Positions 13,535 to 61,444 of a stretch of 64,000 nucleotides of DNA are shown piece by piece (positions within the stretch are counted from its first letter, which is position 1; the number at the start of each line of letters is the position of its first letter). The position numbers and the translations under genes were made by a program. The notes under the pieces are model-generated. The model ran no database searches. It had not been told where the DNA came from and saw only the letters and a list, made by a program, of their open reading frames with translations. This stretch comes from Sialis fuliginosa (lineage: Eukaryota; Arthropoda; Insecta; Megaloptera; Sialidae), in NCBI GenBank assembly GCA_961205875.1, contig OY540812.1, forward strand, positions 28,405,098-28,469,097, given 5' to 3'.

Positions 13535-15571
13535 TGATTCATCAGTAAACTGTATTGAGTCAAGTTTTCTGAAGTGGGAACACTAAAAATCAACTTCTTC
13601 AACTTAAACTTTTTATTGTAGAACTTTGAAGTTTTATTGTTCAAAATTAATGTTCTGAAATATTTTTTGAAAATTTTGATTTTTTAAAAAGTTATAAGCA
13701 AATGAATTTTTATATAGGTTTTTTTTGAAATTTTGATTTCTCCGTAAATACTGAGTAAAAAATAATGAAATTTTTATGGTAGGGCTAAAAATAATTCACA
13801 ATTTAGATGAAATAAAGTTTTCATAAAAGTTTTTATTTTTTCTTATAAATAATAAATATTTTAATAAACAAATAGAAATTTAACCAACTTCTCATATAGA
13901 TAGAAACAATTTTTTTTCACAGTATTGTTCTGTAAAATCTACTTAACTTTTTCCTGAAAAAAAATTTTAGTACATTTCATAAACAAAAAAGTTACGAATG
14001 TTTAACTGCCGTCAGATAGGCGCGCGGCGCGCTGCCGCGCGAGGCACACAAACGCATTCACGCGCTTCACTACCTCACCTACTCGAACAAAAGCAATTTT
14101 ATGGTTGATTATTATAGATTTTGGGGCGTAGAATTCGAAAAAAATAACCCGGACTGTAGAAAAGTGGTGCTACACCCTTAAAAATGGGGTTGAAGAGTGA
14201 AAACCCCGTTTCCAACCTTTTTTTCAATTTATCTCAAAATCTAAATCGATGATGGTTTTTTTTTATGGTTGATATTTGTTAGGGACACACAAACAAATTG
14301 ATTGGGACCACATATACTGAATTTGACCAAAAATTACTTTTTCTAGAGGGTTTGAAAAAAGTAAAAATGCTTCTATTCGGGGAAAATATTTTTAAAATTA
14401 ATAACTTTTGTTAAAATCATCCAAATGACTCGTAATTGGTCTCAAATTGTTCCCGAAGTTCCAAAGAAGAAATGCATTATTTGAATAAAACGTATTATAT
14501 TCAACCCTGATGTTTTTATTTAAATTTTAGTAAAAAGGTAGTTTTTAAAAAATTTACGTTACTTACCCTTAAACATTAGTGATTTTCATTGGTTAAGCTA
14601 TTAATATATTTTTTTAATTATGGTTGATCATTATTCTTTGGAACTTCGGGAACAATTTGAGACCAATTACGAGTCATTTAGATGATTTTAACAAAAGTTA
14701 TTAATTTTTAAAGTATTTTCCCCGAAAAGAAGCATTTTTACTTTTTTCAAACCCTCTAGAAAAAGTAATTTTTGGTCAAATTCAGTATATGTGGTCCCAA
14801 TCAATTTGTTTGTGTGTCCCTAACAAATATCAACCATAAAAAAAACCCATCATCGATTTAGATTTTGAGATAAATTGAAAAAAAGGTTGGAAACGGGGTT
14901 TTCACTCTTCAACCCCATTTTTAAGGGTGTAGCACCACTTTTCTACAGTCCGGGTTATTTTTTTCGAATTCTACGCCCCAAAATCTATAATAATCAACCA
15001 TAAAATTGCTTTTGTTCGAGTAGGTGAGGTAGTGAAGCGCGTGAATGCGTTTGTGTGCCTCGCGCGGCAGCGCGCCGCGCGCCTATCTGACGGCAGTTAA
15101 ACATTCGTAACTTTTTTGTTTATGAAATGTACTAAAATTTTTTTTCAGGAAAAAGTTAAGTAGATTTTACAGAACAATCCTGTAAAAAAATTGTTTCTAT
15201 CTATATGAGAAGTTGGTTAAATTTCTATTTGTTTATTAAAATATTTATTATTTATAAGAAAAAATGAAAACTTTTATGAAAACTTTATTTCATCTAAATT
15301 GTGAATTATTTTTAGCCCTACCATAAAAATTTCATTATTTTTTACTCAGTATTTACGGAGAAATCAAAATTTCAAAAAAAACCTATATAAAAATTCATTT
15401 GCTTATAACTTTTTAAAAAATCAAAATTTTCAAAAAATATTTCAGAACATTAATTTTGAACAATAAAACTTCAAAGTTTTACAATAAAAAGTTTAAGTTG
15501 AAGAAGATGATTTTTAGTGTTCCCACTTCAGAAAACTTGACTCATTAGGTTTATTCACTGATGATTCAGTT
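13535..15571. mobile_element. Giant foldback element, arms of about 0.9 to 1 kb
   Basis: The left arm (13535..14469) and the right arm (14635..15571) are reverse complements with only scattered differences, about 98% identical by eye, around a spacer of about 165 bp. Anchors: CAAGTTTTCTGAAGTGGGAA at 13561 pairs with TTCCCACTTCAGAAAACTTG at 15520..15539, and GAACTTCGGGAACAATTTGA at 14641 pairs with its complement at 14442. Each arm contains one strikingly GC-rich block (GGCGCGCGGCGCGCTGCCGC at 14019 and its complement at about 15063) in otherwise AT-rich DNA. No transposase or long ORF was seen. Outer edges fade through a TGATTCATCAGT-like motif. By structure it is a foldback-type or very long inverted-repeat transposon; the family is not identified. 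A segmental inverted duplication is an alternative. Confidence 0.8.
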
Positions 15572-27425: not shown

Positions 27426-28047
27426 TAACTTACCCTTAATAAATAAAAATGGCCATAATAGAAAAGTCACAGTTACAACAACTACAGAAAACTACATAGT
27501 TGCTACTCTGCTCGAACAAAAATGTTGCGTAAACAAAACGTAAAATGCTGAAGGGAAAAAGAACATTAGAACAAAAATCAACAAGTTCAGGAAATGGTCT
27601 AAGGTAAACTACGTATATGGACGTCATTCAATTCAATGCACTTCCGTTCTCGTTAACTCCCTGTGAAAACAATAGATGGTGCTGATAGGTGACGGGGAGA
27701 ACTAAACGGTCGATATGGCAGATATCTGTTGCAGCTTGTAACATTCTGCTGTACGTTGCAGGTAGAATAGTGTGTAGAAAAAACCATTGAATAAAGGATA
27801 TTTTAATATATCTCAGGTATTTTATCTTATCCAGAACCAATATATAGGTAGATTAAATCTGAAGGTAAAAAGTCAGCAAAGTACATTGTAGACAATGTAT
27901 GAGATCCGGCAATGAAGCTACCGGCGCAGGCGTGAAAATAATTTCTTGAAAATTAGCAATTCTCACCCCTCGATACGAATAAATATATTTTTATAGGCAA
28001 ATTTTTGAAATCAGCTCAACAAGACGCATACTTCGATGCGTAAAGAA
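27426..28047. other. Non-coding, nothing firmly recognised
   Basis: 27620..27800 is less AT-rich (AGATGGTGCTGATAGGTGAC and nearby) and may be unique sequence. The minus-strand ORFs at 27436..27627 and 27628..27840 show no domain. Confidence 0.4.
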
Positions 28048-29605
28048 AAAACATCTGCCAAGTAAATGCACAGTGCTTCCTCGTGCTAAATTCACCAAAG
28101 GTAGTTAATTATTGAACAATTTAAATAAAAACCGATAGTGTTTAGATAAATTGCCTGGAATTGGTTAACCATTTAATTTTTATACAATTTTACAAAAAAT
28201 ATTAGTTTGAAATTTTACTTAAAATGCACCTGATTATGTTTTTGTATATTTTTAATTTTTTGGCAGTTTCAATCTAAATCTAAATTTATGCAAACGTCAA
28301 AATGACATTTCAAACGCCAAAATGGCATATAAAACGTCAAAATGACATTTAATATGTCCAAGCAAATATCAATTTAGATAAACAAAACATGAATTTTTAA
28401 AATAAATTGAGGTAAATTTTTGTAAGGGATTATTTTACAACAAATGTTGTAGACCCATATTAAAGGAAATATAATGCTCTACAAAAAATATTCCATAAAA
28501 TTTTCACGTTACATGTGTCGTTCTTGAGATATCTTGAAAAAATAAATATTTTTGGATGTCACCCCTCCACCTTACACACGATTTTGATGATTTTGAAATG
28601 GGACCATCCTCAAGCCAGACCCAACCATCCGACCAAGTTTCAATAATATCGGTTCAGTGGTTCATGAGATATGCGTGTGACAAGGATTCAGGGGACAGAC
28701 GGACACACACACACACACACGGACGGACAGACAGACAAGGAACGAAAAGTGTTTGTCCTGACGTGAAACGGAAAGATCAATTTAAAATTTTGAAAACATT
28801 TTTGCTTCCTCGCAATATCGAAGATACGAGAAGCTATGTGATCGTTTCAGATTGAGAAACACTTTTCGTTCCGTGTCTGTCTGTCCGTCCGTCCGTTCGT
28901 CTGTCCCCTGAATCCTTGTCACACGCATAACTCATGAACCACTGAACCGATATTATTGAAACTTGGTCGGATGGTTGGGTTTGATTTGAGGACGGTCCCA
29001 TTTCAAAATCATCAAAATCGTGTGTAAGGGGGAGGGGTGACACCCCAAAATATTTCTTATTTCAAGATATCTCAAGAACGACACATGTTACGAGAAAATT
29101 TTATAGAATATTTTTTGTAGAGAATTAAATTTCCTATAATATGGGTCTACTACGTTTGTTGTAAAATATTCCCTTACAAAGATTTATCTAAACTAATTTT
29201 AAAAATTCGTGTTTTGTTTTTTTAAATTGATATTTGATTGGATATATTAAATGTCATTCTGACGTTTTAAATGTCATTTTGGCGTTTTAAATGTCACTTT
29301 GACGTTTTAAATATCATTTTGACATTTGCATAAATTTAGATTTAGATTGAAATTGTCAAAAAATTAAAAATATATGAAAAAATATTCAGGTGCGTTTTAT
29401 GAAAAATTTCGAACTAAGATTTTTTAGTAAAATTTGTATAAAAATTAAATGGTTAACCAATGCCAGGCAACTGCACTATCGGTTTTAGTGAATTTAGCAC
29501 GAGGAAGCACTGTGCATTTACTTGGCAGATGTTTTTTTGTCTCAATCTGAAACGATCACAAAGCTTCTCGTATCTTCGATATTTCGAGGAAGCAAAAGTG
29601 ATGTG
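28048..29605. mobile_element. Rep-A double unit in inverted arrangement (foldback of about 1.55 kb)
   Basis: A forward Rep-A unit (28048..about 28820) is followed by a reversed unit (about 28820..29540) and then by a short forward tail (29541..29605). Unit start: ACATCTGCCAAGTAAATGCA, then GTGCTTCCTCGTGC. Unit end: TATCTTCGATATTTCGAGGA, then AGC. In between lie CAAAATGACATTTAATATGT words, GTGTCGTTCTTGAGATATC, CACCCCTCC, TATCGGTTCAGTGGTTCATG, and a GACAGACGGAC microsatellite. GCTTCCTCG and CGAGGAAGC near the two ends form a short inverted pair. ORFs 28556..28855 and 28834..29043 are near-mirror translations of the two arms. Non-coding; class uncertain. Confidence 0.75.
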
Positions 29606-29984: not shown

Positions 29985-30223
29985 GAGTTTTAAAATATAA
30001 TTTTACACGATTTTTTCAGTAACTACTGAACAGATTTTATTCCGCTTTTTACTAAAAAAAAGGTTAGGTTTAGATATATAATTTGTGGATATTTTATGAA
30101 GTCTGAAAAAAAAATTCGTGGTGAACCGTGTATTGTGAGCATGTTAGGTGGGCCTGTTGAATATTTTAGGTCACTATGATTTTGTGGATATTTACCCGAG
30201 TAACACCGGGTCCAATGAACTAA
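29985..30223 (+). mobile_element. Helitron-like element, 3' end mutated
   Basis: Plus-strand reading: ACACGATTTTTTCAGTAACT, ACTGAACAGATTTTATTCCG, AATTTGTGGATATTTTATGA, GGTGAACCGTGTATTGTGAG, and finally CCCGAGTAACACCGGGTCCA followed by ATGAACTAA. This is the same family as 54700..54950 (reversed there). The 3' stem CCCG...CGGG is kept, but the terminal CTAG has become CTAA. No coding capacity; frame 30023..30289 is incidental. Confidence 0.6.
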
Positions 30224-30545
30224 TAATAATATAAAACTGAAGTCATTTTTATGATGTACACCAAACACCACTGCTTTAAGATCATACATATGTACGCTTA
30301 TAATAAATAGTTTATAATTACCATCTTACTGTCATTTAAATTTAATACTCTACATATACCATTTGGCTTATAGTTTTGTTTGAACTAATAATAATATAAA
30401 ACTGAAGTCATTTTTATGATGTACACCAAACACCACTGCTTTAAGATCATACATATGTACGCTTATAATAAATAGTTTATAATTACCATCTTACTGTCAT
30501 TTAAATTTAATACTCTACATATACCATTTGGCTTATAGTTTTGTT
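30216..30545. repeat. Perfect tandem duplication, 2 x 165 bp
   Basis: Unit 1 (30216..30380) and unit 2 (30381..30545) begin TGAACTAATAATAATATAAA and end TTTGGCTTATAGTTTTGTT. I found no difference between them. The duplication begins inside the last 8 bases of the Helitron-like element. It is either a very recent tandem duplication or an assembly artefact. Confidence 0.85.
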
Positions 30546-32694: not shown

Positions 32695-33450
32695 CCATAT
32701 TGTTTCCTGCCCATATCAAAGATACGAAAAGCTTTGTGATCGTTTTAAAATGAAAAAAAAAATTGTTCTCCGATTTCAAAATTTTAACTTGATTTTTCCG
32801 TTTCAGGTTAAGATAAACACTTTTTATTCCGTGTCTGTCTGTGTGTATATGTGTGTGTGTGTGTGTGTCTGTCTGTCTGTTTCCTGAATCTTGAATAACT
32901 CATAAACCACTGAACCGATATTACTGAAATTTGGTTGGTTGCTTGAGTCTTGCTTGAGGACGGTCCCATTTAAAAATCATTAAAATCGTGTGTAAGGAAG
33001 AGGAGTGAAACCCAAAAATAAGTATTTTTTTAACATATCTCAAGAAAGACACATGTTACGTGAAAATTTTATAGATTTTTTTTTGTAGAACATTCAATTT
33101 TCTATAATTTACCTATGTTACCATATCGTATGTTGTAAAATATTTCTATACAAAGATTTATCTCAATTTGTTTTAATTAATCGTAATTTGTTTTTTACAA
33201 CCGTTATTTACTTTGGCATATTAAATGTCATTTTGGCATTTGTATAGCAGAAATATTTAGATTAAGATTGAAATTGTCAAAAAATTAAAAATAATGAAAA
33301 AAGAATCAGGCGCGTATTAAGAAAAAATTCGAATTAATAATTTTTATTAAAATTTTATGAAAATTAAATGGTTTACCAATGGCAGAAAGTTCATCTGAAT
33401 ATTTTATCGATTTTTATTTAAATTGTTCAATAATTAAAAACTAGCGGTAC
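32695..33450 (-). repeat. Rep-A copy, reversed
   Basis: Runs from AAGATACGAAAAGCTTTGTG through CCGTGTCTGTCTGTGTG, AACCACTGAACCGATATTAC and AATGTCATTTTGGCATTTG to AAATTAAATGGTTTACCAAT and TTGTTCAATAATTAAAAACT. It lacks the outer GTGCTTCCTCG and ACATCTGCC end. It holds an expanded TG/TC microsatellite at 32839..32882. Confidence 0.7.
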
Positions 33451-36432: not shown

Positions 36433-37485
36433 AATTGAATAATTTGAAAAACTAGACGATACGGGACACTAGTACGCGAGGCTCGACTTTAACTTGGTAA
36501 ATTTGTATGTTTATTTATTTATTCTTACTTAACAGGAAAACTATTGAACCGATTTTGATAGGGCTTGTAAATTAATTAATTAATTACATTATTTTTTTTT
36601 TTTTTTTTTAAAAAACATTTAATTTTAAGAGGCTTCGGAGAATATCTGATATAAATATAAAATTCAAACAAAACATGATTAATTCAGTAATCTTTCTATC
36701 ATGAATAGAAATACTGTGGTGATAAAATAATCCAGACTAAATCTCACTTCCGTAAATTGGAATTTATTTTTATCTATTCTAATACCTTTCGTAATTAAAA
36801 CACAAACATTTAATCTTCCTAGATGAGATATTTAATAAAACGCTTAGCCGAAACGAAGGACATTTTTCAGCGTGCACGAATCAGAGAAGAAATCTCATAT
36901 TTGCTAAAGCAATAACGCGCTAAATTAACCCCAGTCACGCTACATTTTCCGTTAACCGACATGCATCTTCATCATTGCCGCACTATGACACATTTGGATG
37001 TTTCTTATATGGGAGACCTATTTCAGATCATTTTTATCTCATTTTATCAAGAGAAATTTGATTTGAAATCTTATCTGACAGATAAATATTTTTATGAAAA
37101 ATTTGTTGTTTAATTTGTATTGAAACTTATTGAATCGAATTTGAGTAATTCGATTGTGAAAACTAAGCATTTGAATAATTCGAATAGAATTTTTAATTAT
37201 TCGAATGAGGTTCTACTGTAGTTTATTTTTGAATATTAGTTTTATTACCATTTTAAATTTAAAATTGGTTATAAATTTTTAATTTCAATGTTATTTAGAA
37301 TTCATTAAAATATCTGCACTATTCTGTTAATATTACAAAGTCAGGAGTATATTTTTTCTTGTAAATTTGACGCTAAATAAAAATTTCAGATACGGATTAG
37401 GCCACAACGTTCTTATTATTATATTATTTAGATCAAGTGTCAAAATTATAAAAAAAACGTATGCCATGTGCTTAGTTTTTCAAAA
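36433..37485. other. AT-rich non-coding stretch
   Basis: Contains ACTATTGAACCGATTTTGAT at 36540 (tail-like motif of an old repeat) and a T run at 36591..36609. 36830..36990 is less AT-rich and may be unique. Nothing else recognised. Confidence 0.45.
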
Positions 37486-37489
37486 ATTT

Positions 37490-38012
37490 AAATTTTTCTG
37501 ATAAGCAAACGTCAAAATGACATTTAATATGTAAATAAATTGCGATTGAAAAAAAAATGAAGATTTTGTAAGCAAATGTAGATAAATCTTCGAAAGATAA
37601 TATTTCATTACAAAACCTGTGGTGATCTAAGTATTTTATAGAAAACTGAATGCTCTGCAAGAAAGATTTTATTAAAATGTCACGTAAAATGTGTCGTTCT
37701 TGAGATATCAAGAAAAAATAACTATTTTAGAATATCACTCATCCCTGTTACACACAATTTTGATAATTTTTAAATGGAACCGTTCTCAAGCTAGACCCAA
37801 CTAACCAACCAGGTTTCATTAATATCGGTTTAGTGGTTTATGAGTTATGCTTGTAATAAGGATTCGAGAGACAGGCAGACAGATGGACAGACAGACAGAC
37901 ACGAAACGAAAAGTGGTTGTCTTGGTCTGAAACGGAAAGATCAAGTAAAGTTTCGAATTTTTTTTTCTCATTTTAAAACGATCATCGATATGGCGAGAAA
38001 GCAAAATATTCT
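37490..38012 (+). repeat. Rep-A copy, 5'-truncated
   Basis: Enters at GCAAACGTCAAAATGACATT and continues through GTGTCGTTCTTGAGATATC, AATATCGGTTTAGTGGTTTA, GACAGGCAGACAGATGGACA and GTCTGAAACGGAAAGATCAA to AAAACGATCATCGATATGGC and GAGAAAGC. The first 280 bp or so of the unit are missing. The ORFs 37819..38004 and 37840..38025 are incidental readings of it. Confidence 0.7.
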
Positions 38013-40499: not shown

Positions 40500-40577
40500 T
40501 ATATAATATATTTGGCAATTTTTAGTTCTCTTAATTCTTTATCTGCAGAAGTGAATAAACGTGTAAGCAGTACTCAC

Positions 40578-40724
40578 CGGAACCAGGAAGCGACGCACTT
40601 CCGCAAGGGCGTAGGCGATCCGCGCATGCGCCTCGGCCGGCGTGGCGAACGCGGATATCTCCACGTGTAGGTCTTCGCTTAAGTGCTGGAACTTGGGGTC
40701 GCCGGATGCTCGCAGTTCTTCTTC
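40578..40724 (-). CDS. Internal exon of a KH/STAR RNA-binding protein (KHDRBS/quaking-related type)
   Basis: This 147-bp exon encodes 49 residues in phase 0, starting EEELRASGDPKFQHLSEDLH and ending AEVRRFLVP. It corresponds to the C-terminal half of the STAR-type (maxi) KH domain of Sam68/SLM (KHDRBS) and insect quaking-related proteins. DLHVEISAF is the third beta strand and the PAEAHARIAYALAEV stretch is the last helix, which pack against single-stranded RNA. Family members bind A/U-rich RNA as dimers and regulate splicing. Splice sites on the minus strand: acceptor TTTCAG before GAAG (40725..40730) and donor CCG then GTGAGTACTG from 40577. GC content and CpG are far above the surroundings and third positions are GC-rich, as in a real exon. 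The start (GXXG-bearing half of the KH domain) and downstream exons are not in the window. Which paralogue it is cannot be decided from 49 residues. Confidence 0.92.
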
Positions 40725-41520
40725 CTGAAACACGCCAAGTTTTCATATTATTATTACGTTATAATGTGTCTTATTATGGCGTCGTTATGGGTAAAATATA
40801 ATAAAAAATTAAATTATTTAGTAGGTACTTTATTAATTTTTATTAGTTTCATACAATCAAAAGTAAGTATTTCTTTAAAAAATATTATTTTGATTTATTT
40901 ATACACTGCAAACTTTTGTACTTTTTCAAAACCCATTTTTCTGCATTGAGTGTCGAAAGCTTAATAGAGATGTTGGCCTAAATGACGCGGCTTGAACCCA
41001 CTAACCAAGATTTCCATACATAATATTACATACTTATCAAAAAACAAGAGATCCAAATATCCCAAGAAAAAAAAGATATATAGGTATTCAAACTTCTACA
41101 ATGATGGTAAAATTAATCTTATTGTTGAATAGATAGAAAAAGCACTTTAATAATTACAATATCTGGTTTCTTGTTGTTTGAAATTTAATTAATTTAAAAA
41201 TAAAAAATTACACTGTCATGATACATGGGATTAAAATAATTGTAAATAAAATCATTTGGAAGTGTAAAATTGAAGCTTATAAAAATAAGTGTCCATAAGG
41301 TGGGTTTTTGCCCCCAAGGCTTTGTATATCCTCAACTATTTATATGTGAGGTAAAGCTTTTACAAATATGAAAAGAAAATAGTTCAAAATTTTTTATTTG
41401 AAAGTTTTTAAATGTGTGTCAGCACACATTTATTTTATTTTATTATTTTTTTGCAACGTTCTATTTTCATTGCATTATTATTGAATTACTATATTTTGAA
41501 GCTTCCGCAGCGATCTGGAT
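40725..41520. other. Intron sequence upstream of the KH exon
   Basis: AT-rich sequence preceding the exon in the direction of transcription. The pyrimidine tract next to the acceptor is short (CTTGGCGTGTTTCAG on the minus strand). No repeat end recognised. The ORF 40683..40949 crosses the exon antisense and is not a gene. Confidence 0.6.
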
Positions 41521-43992: not shown

Positions 43993-44554
43993 ACAAGTAA
44001 CACTACCCAACTGTAACTCACCGATTTGAATGAAACTTAACATACTTATTAAACACCGAAAAATATTAAATACGTGTTTTTTTGTTTTGGCTAAATACGC
44101 TTTTTAGGGGTAGAAATCACCCCTCAACTACTGGAGGTGGAAACAGTTATGGCTAATTATTTCTGAAACGATACATTTTCTGAAAAAAGTGCTTAGGACC
44201 AAAGTTGTAGAGTTTAAAGTGATGCACTTGATGGCGACCTTGAGGTCGATTTTCAAGGTGAATGAAACATGAAATGATTTTCAAATGACCTTTAAAATCG
44301 ACCTCAAGGTTGCCATCAAGTGCATCACTTTGAACTCTACAACTTTGATCCTAAGCACTTTTTTCAGAAAATGTATCTTTTCAGAAATAATTAGCTATAA
44401 CTGTTTCCACCTCCAGTGGTTGAGGGGTGATTTCGACCCCTAAAAAGCGTATTTAGCCGAAACAAAAAAACACGTATTTAATATTTTTCGGTGTTTAATA
44501 AGTATGTTAAGTTTCATTCAAATCGGTGAGTTACAGTTGGGTAGTGTTACTTGT
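43993..44554. mobile_element. 562-bp hairpin element, arms of about 265 bp
   Basis: A near-perfect inverted repeat. Outer ends ACAAGTAACACTACCCAACT and AGTTGGGTAGTGTTACTTGT; inner ends AGTGATGCACTTGATGGCGA and TTGCCATCAAGTGCATCACT; loop of about 40 bp around 44255..44290 with ATGAAACATGAAATGATTTT. Few mismatches between arms. Further anchors: TTAGGGGTAGAAATCACCCC (left) pairs with GGGGTGATTTCGACCCCTAA (right). No frame. By structure a foldback MITE. No other copy in the window. Confidence 0.8.
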
Positions 44555-50746: not shown

Positions 50747-51312
50747 AAAAAACATCTGCCAAGTAAATTCACAGTGCTTCCTCGTGCTATATTCACCAAA
50801 GGTAGTTAACTATTGAACAATTTAAATAAAAACAGATAAAGTGTTTTTGCCTAGCATTGGTTAACCATTTAATTTTTATACAATTTTACTAAAAAATATT
50901 AATTCGTTTTTTCATAAGACGTACCAACCTGGTTATTTTTTCGTATATTTTTAATTTCAATCTACATCTAAATTTATGCAAACATCAAAATGACATTTAA
51001 TATGTTAAAGTAAACACGATTTTTTAAAGCAAATTGAGGTAAATCTTTCTTAGGGAATATTTTACAGCAAATGTTGTAGACCTGTATTATCGGAAATTGG
51101 ATGCTCTATAATAAATATCCTATAAGAATTTTACGTAACATGTATCGTTCTTGAGATATCACCCCTCCCCCTTACACAGGATTTTGAAGATTTTGAAATG
51201 GGACCTAAAACGGAAAGATCAATTTAAAGTATCGAAATCGGAGAACAATTTTTTTGTCTCATTCTAAAACGATCACAAAGCTTTTTGTATCTTCGATATT
51301 TCGAGGAAGAAA
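50747..51312 (+). repeat. Rep-A copy with both ends, internal deletion
   Basis: Starts AACATCTGCCAAGTAAATTC and ends ATCTTCGATATTTCGAGGAAG, giving the family's two boundaries in one copy. About 180 bp are missing between GATTTTGAAATGGGACC and AAAACGGAAAGATCAATTTA, that is, the TATCGGTTCAGTGG and GACAGAC region. No coding capacity. Confidence 0.75.
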
Positions 51313-60438: not shown

Positions 60439-61444
60439 AAATAAACAAATAAAGCAAAATATATCTGACATCAAAAAAATAACAACTGAAAAATATAACC
60501 TAGTTATTTGAACAAAGGTTATATGACGCTTAAAATTTTGATAAATATAAAATTAAATAGATTTTGAGCTATTTTCTACCGTTTTTCAGTTAATTGCTAC
60601 CCAGCATTTAAAAAATCGATTGAATTCAAATCCAGAAAAAAGCATTAAAAAATTAAAAATTAAAAGCTCCAAAATGCTTTATGATTGATCGTTCTGCAGC
60701 TTTTTTATCAAAAATGTGATGATTTTAATTTTTCCCATTTTTTACAAACAAAATTCTATTTGATTTTTTATTGTTTTTTAAATCTTTCATGATCCGTAAA
60801 AAAATATCCAATCCTGTTACCGACTTTAATGACATGTATATTGAAGGTACACAGCAAGTTTAAAGTCAATCGGTTCAGTAGATTTTGATATATTATGGCA
60901 GCCATTTAAATAACTTAATTTCGAGGAAAACGCGTTTAAAGTTTTCGAAAACCTAATGAGTCAATAATTCTACACATCTGCCGCGCGCTGGGTCCCGCCC
61001 CGTTCAAACCGCTATAATTTCATTAATTTTGATAATAAGGTTTTGGACAAATATTTTTGAAATCCTATTTATTAATAAAATGCCAAAAAATCGATATTTT
61101 AAAATCTCTACAGGCATAAAAAAGTTCACTTAAAACAAGATAAAATTTTGTATAAAACAGAATGTTACCTTCGTACGATAATATAATTTTGAAGAGAAAT
61201 AATATTATACTTGGATTAAGATTATATTCTAATATTAAGATAATATTGTTTTCGATATATGTATATGATGAATCAAGGATTTTTAACTCTTAAAGGTACA
61301 GAAAAACAATATTTATTTTTACCCAGATTCCACACACGTTTATTTATCCACATTGGCCACTACACTAAATAAAATAAATTGTTTAACCACTTTCAAACCT
61401 GGAACAATGGTTGTATAATGCATTATTACATAGTACATACTATA
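60439..61444. other. Non-coding with probable repeat fragment
   Basis: 60800..61010 carries AAGTCAATCGGTTCAGTAGA and the GC-rich CTGCCGCGCGCTGGGTCCCG (60980), wording of an old repeat whose ends are not visible. The rest is AT-rich. Confidence 0.4.

Follow-up and report, generated by a model that had tools for sequence, protein, structure and literature searches.

A foldback element with nearly identical arms in Sialis fuliginosa belongs to a dispersed family with common ends and 3-bp target site duplications

The 2-kb foldback in the 64-kb stretch of Sialis fuliginosa DNA analysed here (the window) is, with high confidence, best explained as a DNA transposon of the non-autonomous foldback (long-arm TIR) type, belonging to a small and fairly young family (here family A) that is probably moved in trans and whose arms appear to convert one another. 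We read it as a transposon because dispersed copies have the same termini and 3-bp duplications, and because two of them have empty sites.

Structure of the window copy

The arms align as reverse complements over 915 columns, of which 903 are identical; 10 are substitutions and the remainder a single 2-nt gap, and a chance origin of the match is excluded (self-BLAST of the window, E = 0). They make up 1828 of the 1987 bp of the element (13557-15543). The first-pass annotation had described a foldback with two near-identical arms of about 0.92 kb, and this structure is real, with arms of 915 and 913 bp; it is also, as claimed, the largest structure of the window, being the largest of the seven inverted repeats measured. 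The short central spacer stands as well, but its length is 159 bp and not 165 bp, and the ends had been placed at 13535 and 15571, which is 22 and 28 bp too wide, since other copies stop at GAGTC/GACTC. A looser local alignment widens the arms to 13535-14497 and 14602-15568. The features of the copy are as follows.

13535..13546, no strand: left half of an imperfect palindrome of the target site, outside the element; missing from other copies' flanks
13554..13556, no strand: left target site duplication ATT (flank comparison across copies)
13557..14471, + strand: left arm, 915 bp, starting GAGTCAAGTTTTC (arm alignment, ends compared across copies)
14019..14042, + strand: GC-rich self-complementary block of the left arm, one per arm
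14091..14471, + strand: inner module of the left arm, common to the abundant foldback family B
14472..14630, no strand: spacer, 159 bp, in the same place in 16 of the 20 family A loci compared
14631..15543, - strand: right arm, 913 bp, finishing GAAAACTTGACTC (arm alignment, ends compared across copies)
14631..15011, - strand: inner module of the right arm, common to family B
15060..15083, - strand: GC-rich self-complementary block of the right arm, one per arm
15544..15546, no strand: right target site duplication ATT (flank comparison across copies)
15557..15568, no strand: right half of the imperfect palindrome of the target site, outside the element; missing from other copies' flanks

The absence of a transposase from the element was borne out: no coding sequence was recognised, and the two arm ORFs scanned had no Pfam match at E values up to 1. 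Across the window, ten ORFs gave nothing above the Pfam cut-off, Rfam gave no matches at gathering scores, and self-BLAST found no further copies of the family A foldback.

The GC content of the window is 29%, and a short GC-rich block, GCCGCGCGCTGGG, lies amid AT-rich sequence at 60980-60992. The 11-mer TTATGGTTGAT (for example at 14099, 14263 and 14618) has two occurrences in each arm and one in the spacer, with no exact match elsewhere in the window. At least six inverted repeats are present besides the family A copy. A second large foldback at 28046-29537 has arms of about 0.7 kb (608 of 734 columns identical) and partial relatives at 32774-33437, 37485-37984 and 50747-51205, and a compact palindrome at 43993-44554 has 267-bp arms, identical at 258 of 267 positions, around a 28-bp spacer. 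At 30216-30545, 165 bp are repeated in tandem with 100% identity.

Dispersed copies, ends and empty sites

A genome-wide search with one arm, which the first-pass annotation had proposed as a check, revealed dispersed copies with common boundaries and target duplications. In the 392-Mb genome (20 contigs), one arm gave at least 59 matches with 40 of 618 first-look candidates scored, and several contigs carry full foldbacks. The outer 164 bp gave 35 matches (35/35 candidates scored) and the middle 370 bp gave 36 (36/36 scored), of which 33 fell inside loci already found by other arm queries and the rest were one fragment (C13:720594, L049) and two matches of about 55 bp. By our tally, 20 family A loci retain over 400 bp of arm, and five further matches are fragments or relatives. 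Six copies are full length (1971-1991 bp), and the other six two-ended copies measure 908-2248 bp. The spacer is homologous and in the same position in 16 of the 20 loci, and with one homologous spacer the palindrome of the family probably formed once. Searches of viral contigs (three exact patterns), of bacterial and archaeal genomes (one pattern) and of phages and plasmids, all collections unlikely to hold the host, gave no family A match.

Comparison of the window copy with the others places the termini at GAGTCAAG...CTTGACTC. In a survey of 20 loci, the window copy included, both ends were present in 12; the 3 bp on either side are an exact target duplication in 10 of the 12, compared with 6 of 132 control pairs of flanks from different loci. 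The exceptions are L023, with 4 bp, and L025, with only 1 bp. The ten duplications are ATA, ATA, AGG, TAT, AAA, ACC, TAT, AAT, CTT and ATT, the last being that of the window copy. The weaker outer match TGATTCATCAGT/ACTGATGATTCA is missing from the flanks of other copies inspected and is therefore a property of the target site. A first idea of a 7-bp duplication, TGATTCA, with a Galileo/P-like reading was dropped, as the other copies place the ends further in and have a 3-bp duplication.

When the joined flanks of 10 copies were compared with the fetched loci and the window, paralogous empty sites were found for two copies. In L011 the element lies near the end of another repeat, and elsewhere in this locus that repeat is uninterrupted and carries one AGG in place of the AGG...AGG of the filled site (94% over 160 bp); this match starts just 9 bp left of the junction. 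Element-free stretches of the repeat that surrounds the L009 copy are present within L009 itself (95% over 291 bp, though small gaps lie close to the junction) and at several places in L018. The same comparison yielded no empty site for the window copy, and a match for L020 was not counted, being its own element end.

Two loci, L015 and L021, match each other in inverted orientation at 97% over one arm and about 750 bp of its flank; in part they represent a single insertion, and the segmental duplication that copied it begins within the foldback copy. The copy in L026 is split by an LTR-type element (L026:2254-7503), which we take to be gypsy-like.

Family A would be mobilised by cut and paste, through a transposase that recognises the GAGTCAAG ends and has its gene outside the element, and movement in trans is probable. 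Among the loci examined, no transposase or autonomous copy of family A was found. At four loci (L038-L041) the outer 126-164 bp of the arm run on into other sequence; within 10 kb around each of these lone ends there was no second matching end and no transposase between ends, and they are perhaps further element types with the same ends. Their frames are presumably RT-like in L038, zinc fingers in L039 and ankyrin-like in L040, and L041 has what we assume to be a mariner-like frame about 8 kb from the A end.

Homogenisation of the arms

The first-pass annotation had put the similarity of the arms down to recent origin or gene conversion between them, and our data support homogenisation. The window arms are sisters in the arm tree with a support of 100/100, in a tree of 22 arms in which 7 of the 19 inner branches are open. 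They also have in common 11 bases, spread along the arm, that occur at no other of 17 loci. As a control, 220 pairs were formed from arms of different loci, and the two loci of each pair were excluded from the comparison set; here the mean number of such private bases was 0.20 and the maximum 5; keeping the partner arms in the comparison set gave lower values (mean 0.06, maximum 1).

Naming the arms a and b by spacer orientation, we find that the tree does not divide into an a clade and a b clade (AU p 0.000318; 22 arms, 11 loci), in a test where L025, having no spacer, lacks a fixed orientation of its arms. Without L025 the value is 0.000196 (20 arms), and without L021 as well it is 0.000176 (18 arms). 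This test is weakened by the fact that crossing over between arms would invert the spacer, so that the a arm would be named b and the b arm a; the sisterhood of the arms is the stronger evidence because a crossover cannot make the arms of one copy sisters.

The other ten of the 11 two-arm loci have only 0-3 private bases common to both arms, and in L011 and L021 the a and b arms still belong to separate lineages, which is what movement of the entire unit would predict, so that homogenisation is intermittent. The arms differ by 0.3%-4.9% within a copy (11 loci) and by a mean of 4.0% between loci (393 pairs); the multiple alignment counts the window pair at 13 differences in 913. These comparisons show that the arms have been homogenised within some copies, the window copy included, with gene conversion as the simplest cause; the evidence for strong homogenisation comes chiefly from the window copy. 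Repair or replication templated by the hairpin would give the same picture. After insertion, the arms may pair, as a cruciform or between sister chromatids, and convert one another, and because of such conversion arm identity would reflect repair as well as age.

A larger related family

A second set of foldbacks, family B, resembles family A in the inner 380 bp of the arm (83-92%) and in most of the spacer (79-93%; positions 26-162 of a 162-bp query, 14472-14633). The family B end motif has 850 occurrences in the genome at up to two mismatches, with positions given for those on C1 and part of C2, compared with 12 for the reversed pattern. Members L035-L037 have TAGYCCAGTMAAGGAAGC ends and tandem copies of the arm unit inside. 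All five family B copies with both ends, among 11 loci looked at, have 3-bp duplications (TAA, TAT, TAA, TAT and TTT); an extra right end in L047 was left unpaired in this count. By eye, the first nine bases of the A and B ends agree at seven (GAGTCAAGT/TAGTCCAGT). The two families thus have a common core and different outer ends. Long pairs of family B ends in L047 and L048 were considered as an autonomous copy and rejected, being nested insertions with no frame over 111 aa.

A bolder and rather unlikely extension is that A and B are exchangeable assemblies, in which a common foldback core (the inner 380 bp and the spacer) is set on different outer ends, one transposase with a relaxed 3-bp target serves both, and conversion keeps the two arms of each inserted palindrome alike.

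Comparison with known elements

By form, family A is a foldback element, with two long arms and little between them, dispersed copies with fixed ends, a duplication of constant length (10/12) and empty sites (L011, L009). The foldbacks FB and Tetris of Drosophila and Tm1 of root-knot nematodes have the same form and, like family A, no evident coding capacity; the repeats within their arms are paralleled in family B. MITEs are non-autonomous, dispersed elements with inverted ends, and family A is like them in all three respects and unlike them in being longer (2 kb), almost entirely arm, and low in copy number. CACTA/EnSpm elements have CACTR termini and a 3-bp duplication; the length fits, but family A ends in GAGTC. 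Duplications of 3 or 3-4 bp are also made by Zator, Chapaev3 and Academ.

Galileo, of the P superfamily in Drosophila, has arms of about 0.3-1.2 kb and up to 4.7 kb and resembles family A in its long near-identical arms, in target duplications and in that most copies are without a full transposase, according to PMC4168063 and PMC3573991. Its duplications, however, are 7 bp and rarely 8 bp long with the consensus GTANTAC (PMC4168063), compared with 3 bp in family A. None of the 12 two-ended family A copies matched at 7 or 8 bp, and judged by this length family A is not Galileo-like; a P-type transposase, a feature of Galileo, was not found for family A. Tetris, unlike family A, makes 8-10-bp duplications and is placed in Mutator (PMC4079207).

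According to PMC2572040, Harbinger elements usually make target duplications of 3 bp, and Turmoil-1 of this group in Caenorhabditis elegans has long inverted ends of 760 bp, like the arms of family A, and, unlike family A, encodes a transposase. The PIF/Harbinger target is TWA (PMC4482050), and 0 of 10 family A and 2 of 5 family B duplications fit it; judged by target, family A is not PIF/Harbinger. The same paper gives ANT, CWG or TNA as the duplication of the Pangu and Nuwa groups of PHIS, and in family A these account for 2 of 10, none and none, respectively. We regard family A as a new family of an already known kind, as judged against published descriptions. Four end sequences had no occurrence in the literature text searched, which is weak evidence because repeat libraries lie outside the scope of that search.

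Alternative explanations

The predicted RNA of the element folds at -1488 kcal/mol with 95% of its bases paired, compared with -342 to -518 kcal/mol for four other stretches of the same length from the window, and a transcript, if made, would be a hairpin whose stem measures about 0.9 kb, from which siRNA is possible. According to PMC10292708, hairpin RNAs silence targets in Drosophila simulans, and the foldback could be a hairpin-RNA locus under selection, with the fold itself as the function. We consider this improbable: any foldback would fold likewise, and family A copies bear substitutions, deletions and insertions. It is plausible that the element lies within an intron of a host gene, of which a Sam68/KHDRBS-like exon was identified on one side only; this exon-like frame (40542-40742, - strand) matches Sam68/KHDRBS STAR domains (E 6e-15).

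The GC-rich self-complementary block is present once per arm, as first described, and was also called an odd island. Within the family it is not odd. It is gap-free in 25 of 29 arm rows and is no less variable than the remainder of the arm, with departures from the column majority of 3.1% in the GC core and 1.5-2.5% in other parts, and so looks like ordinary family sequence with no sign of special constraint.

An inverted duplication local to one locus, from fold-back replication or a repair error, would give a near-perfect palindrome of the kind seen here, where the arms are 99% identical. We give it almost no weight, and it is refuted by the dispersed copies. The first-pass annotation had reserved this reading for the case that arms occur elsewhere only singly, but full foldbacks recur with common boundaries, and the same palindrome, spacer, ends and 3-bp duplications are present at other loci, two of them with empty sites. 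Palindromes are hard to assemble, but an artefact of collapsed or mirrored reads deserves hardly any credence, as the two window arms are not identical (10 substitutions, a 2-nt gap) and the same form stands at loci on other contigs that have target duplications of their own.

Implications

In conclusion, near-identical foldback arms need not signal a recent insertion, and arm-to-arm conversion can be measured in copies that have inserted at different sites. Family A is small, has clear duplications and is tied to a family hundreds strong with different ends, which makes it a tractable case for the gain of long foldback arms. If the exchangeable-assembly reading were true, A and B would form a hitherto undescribed group of foldback transposons that make 3-bp duplications and whose form is kept by conversion. 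For annotators, palindromes like those of family A can be mobile elements instead of local duplications.
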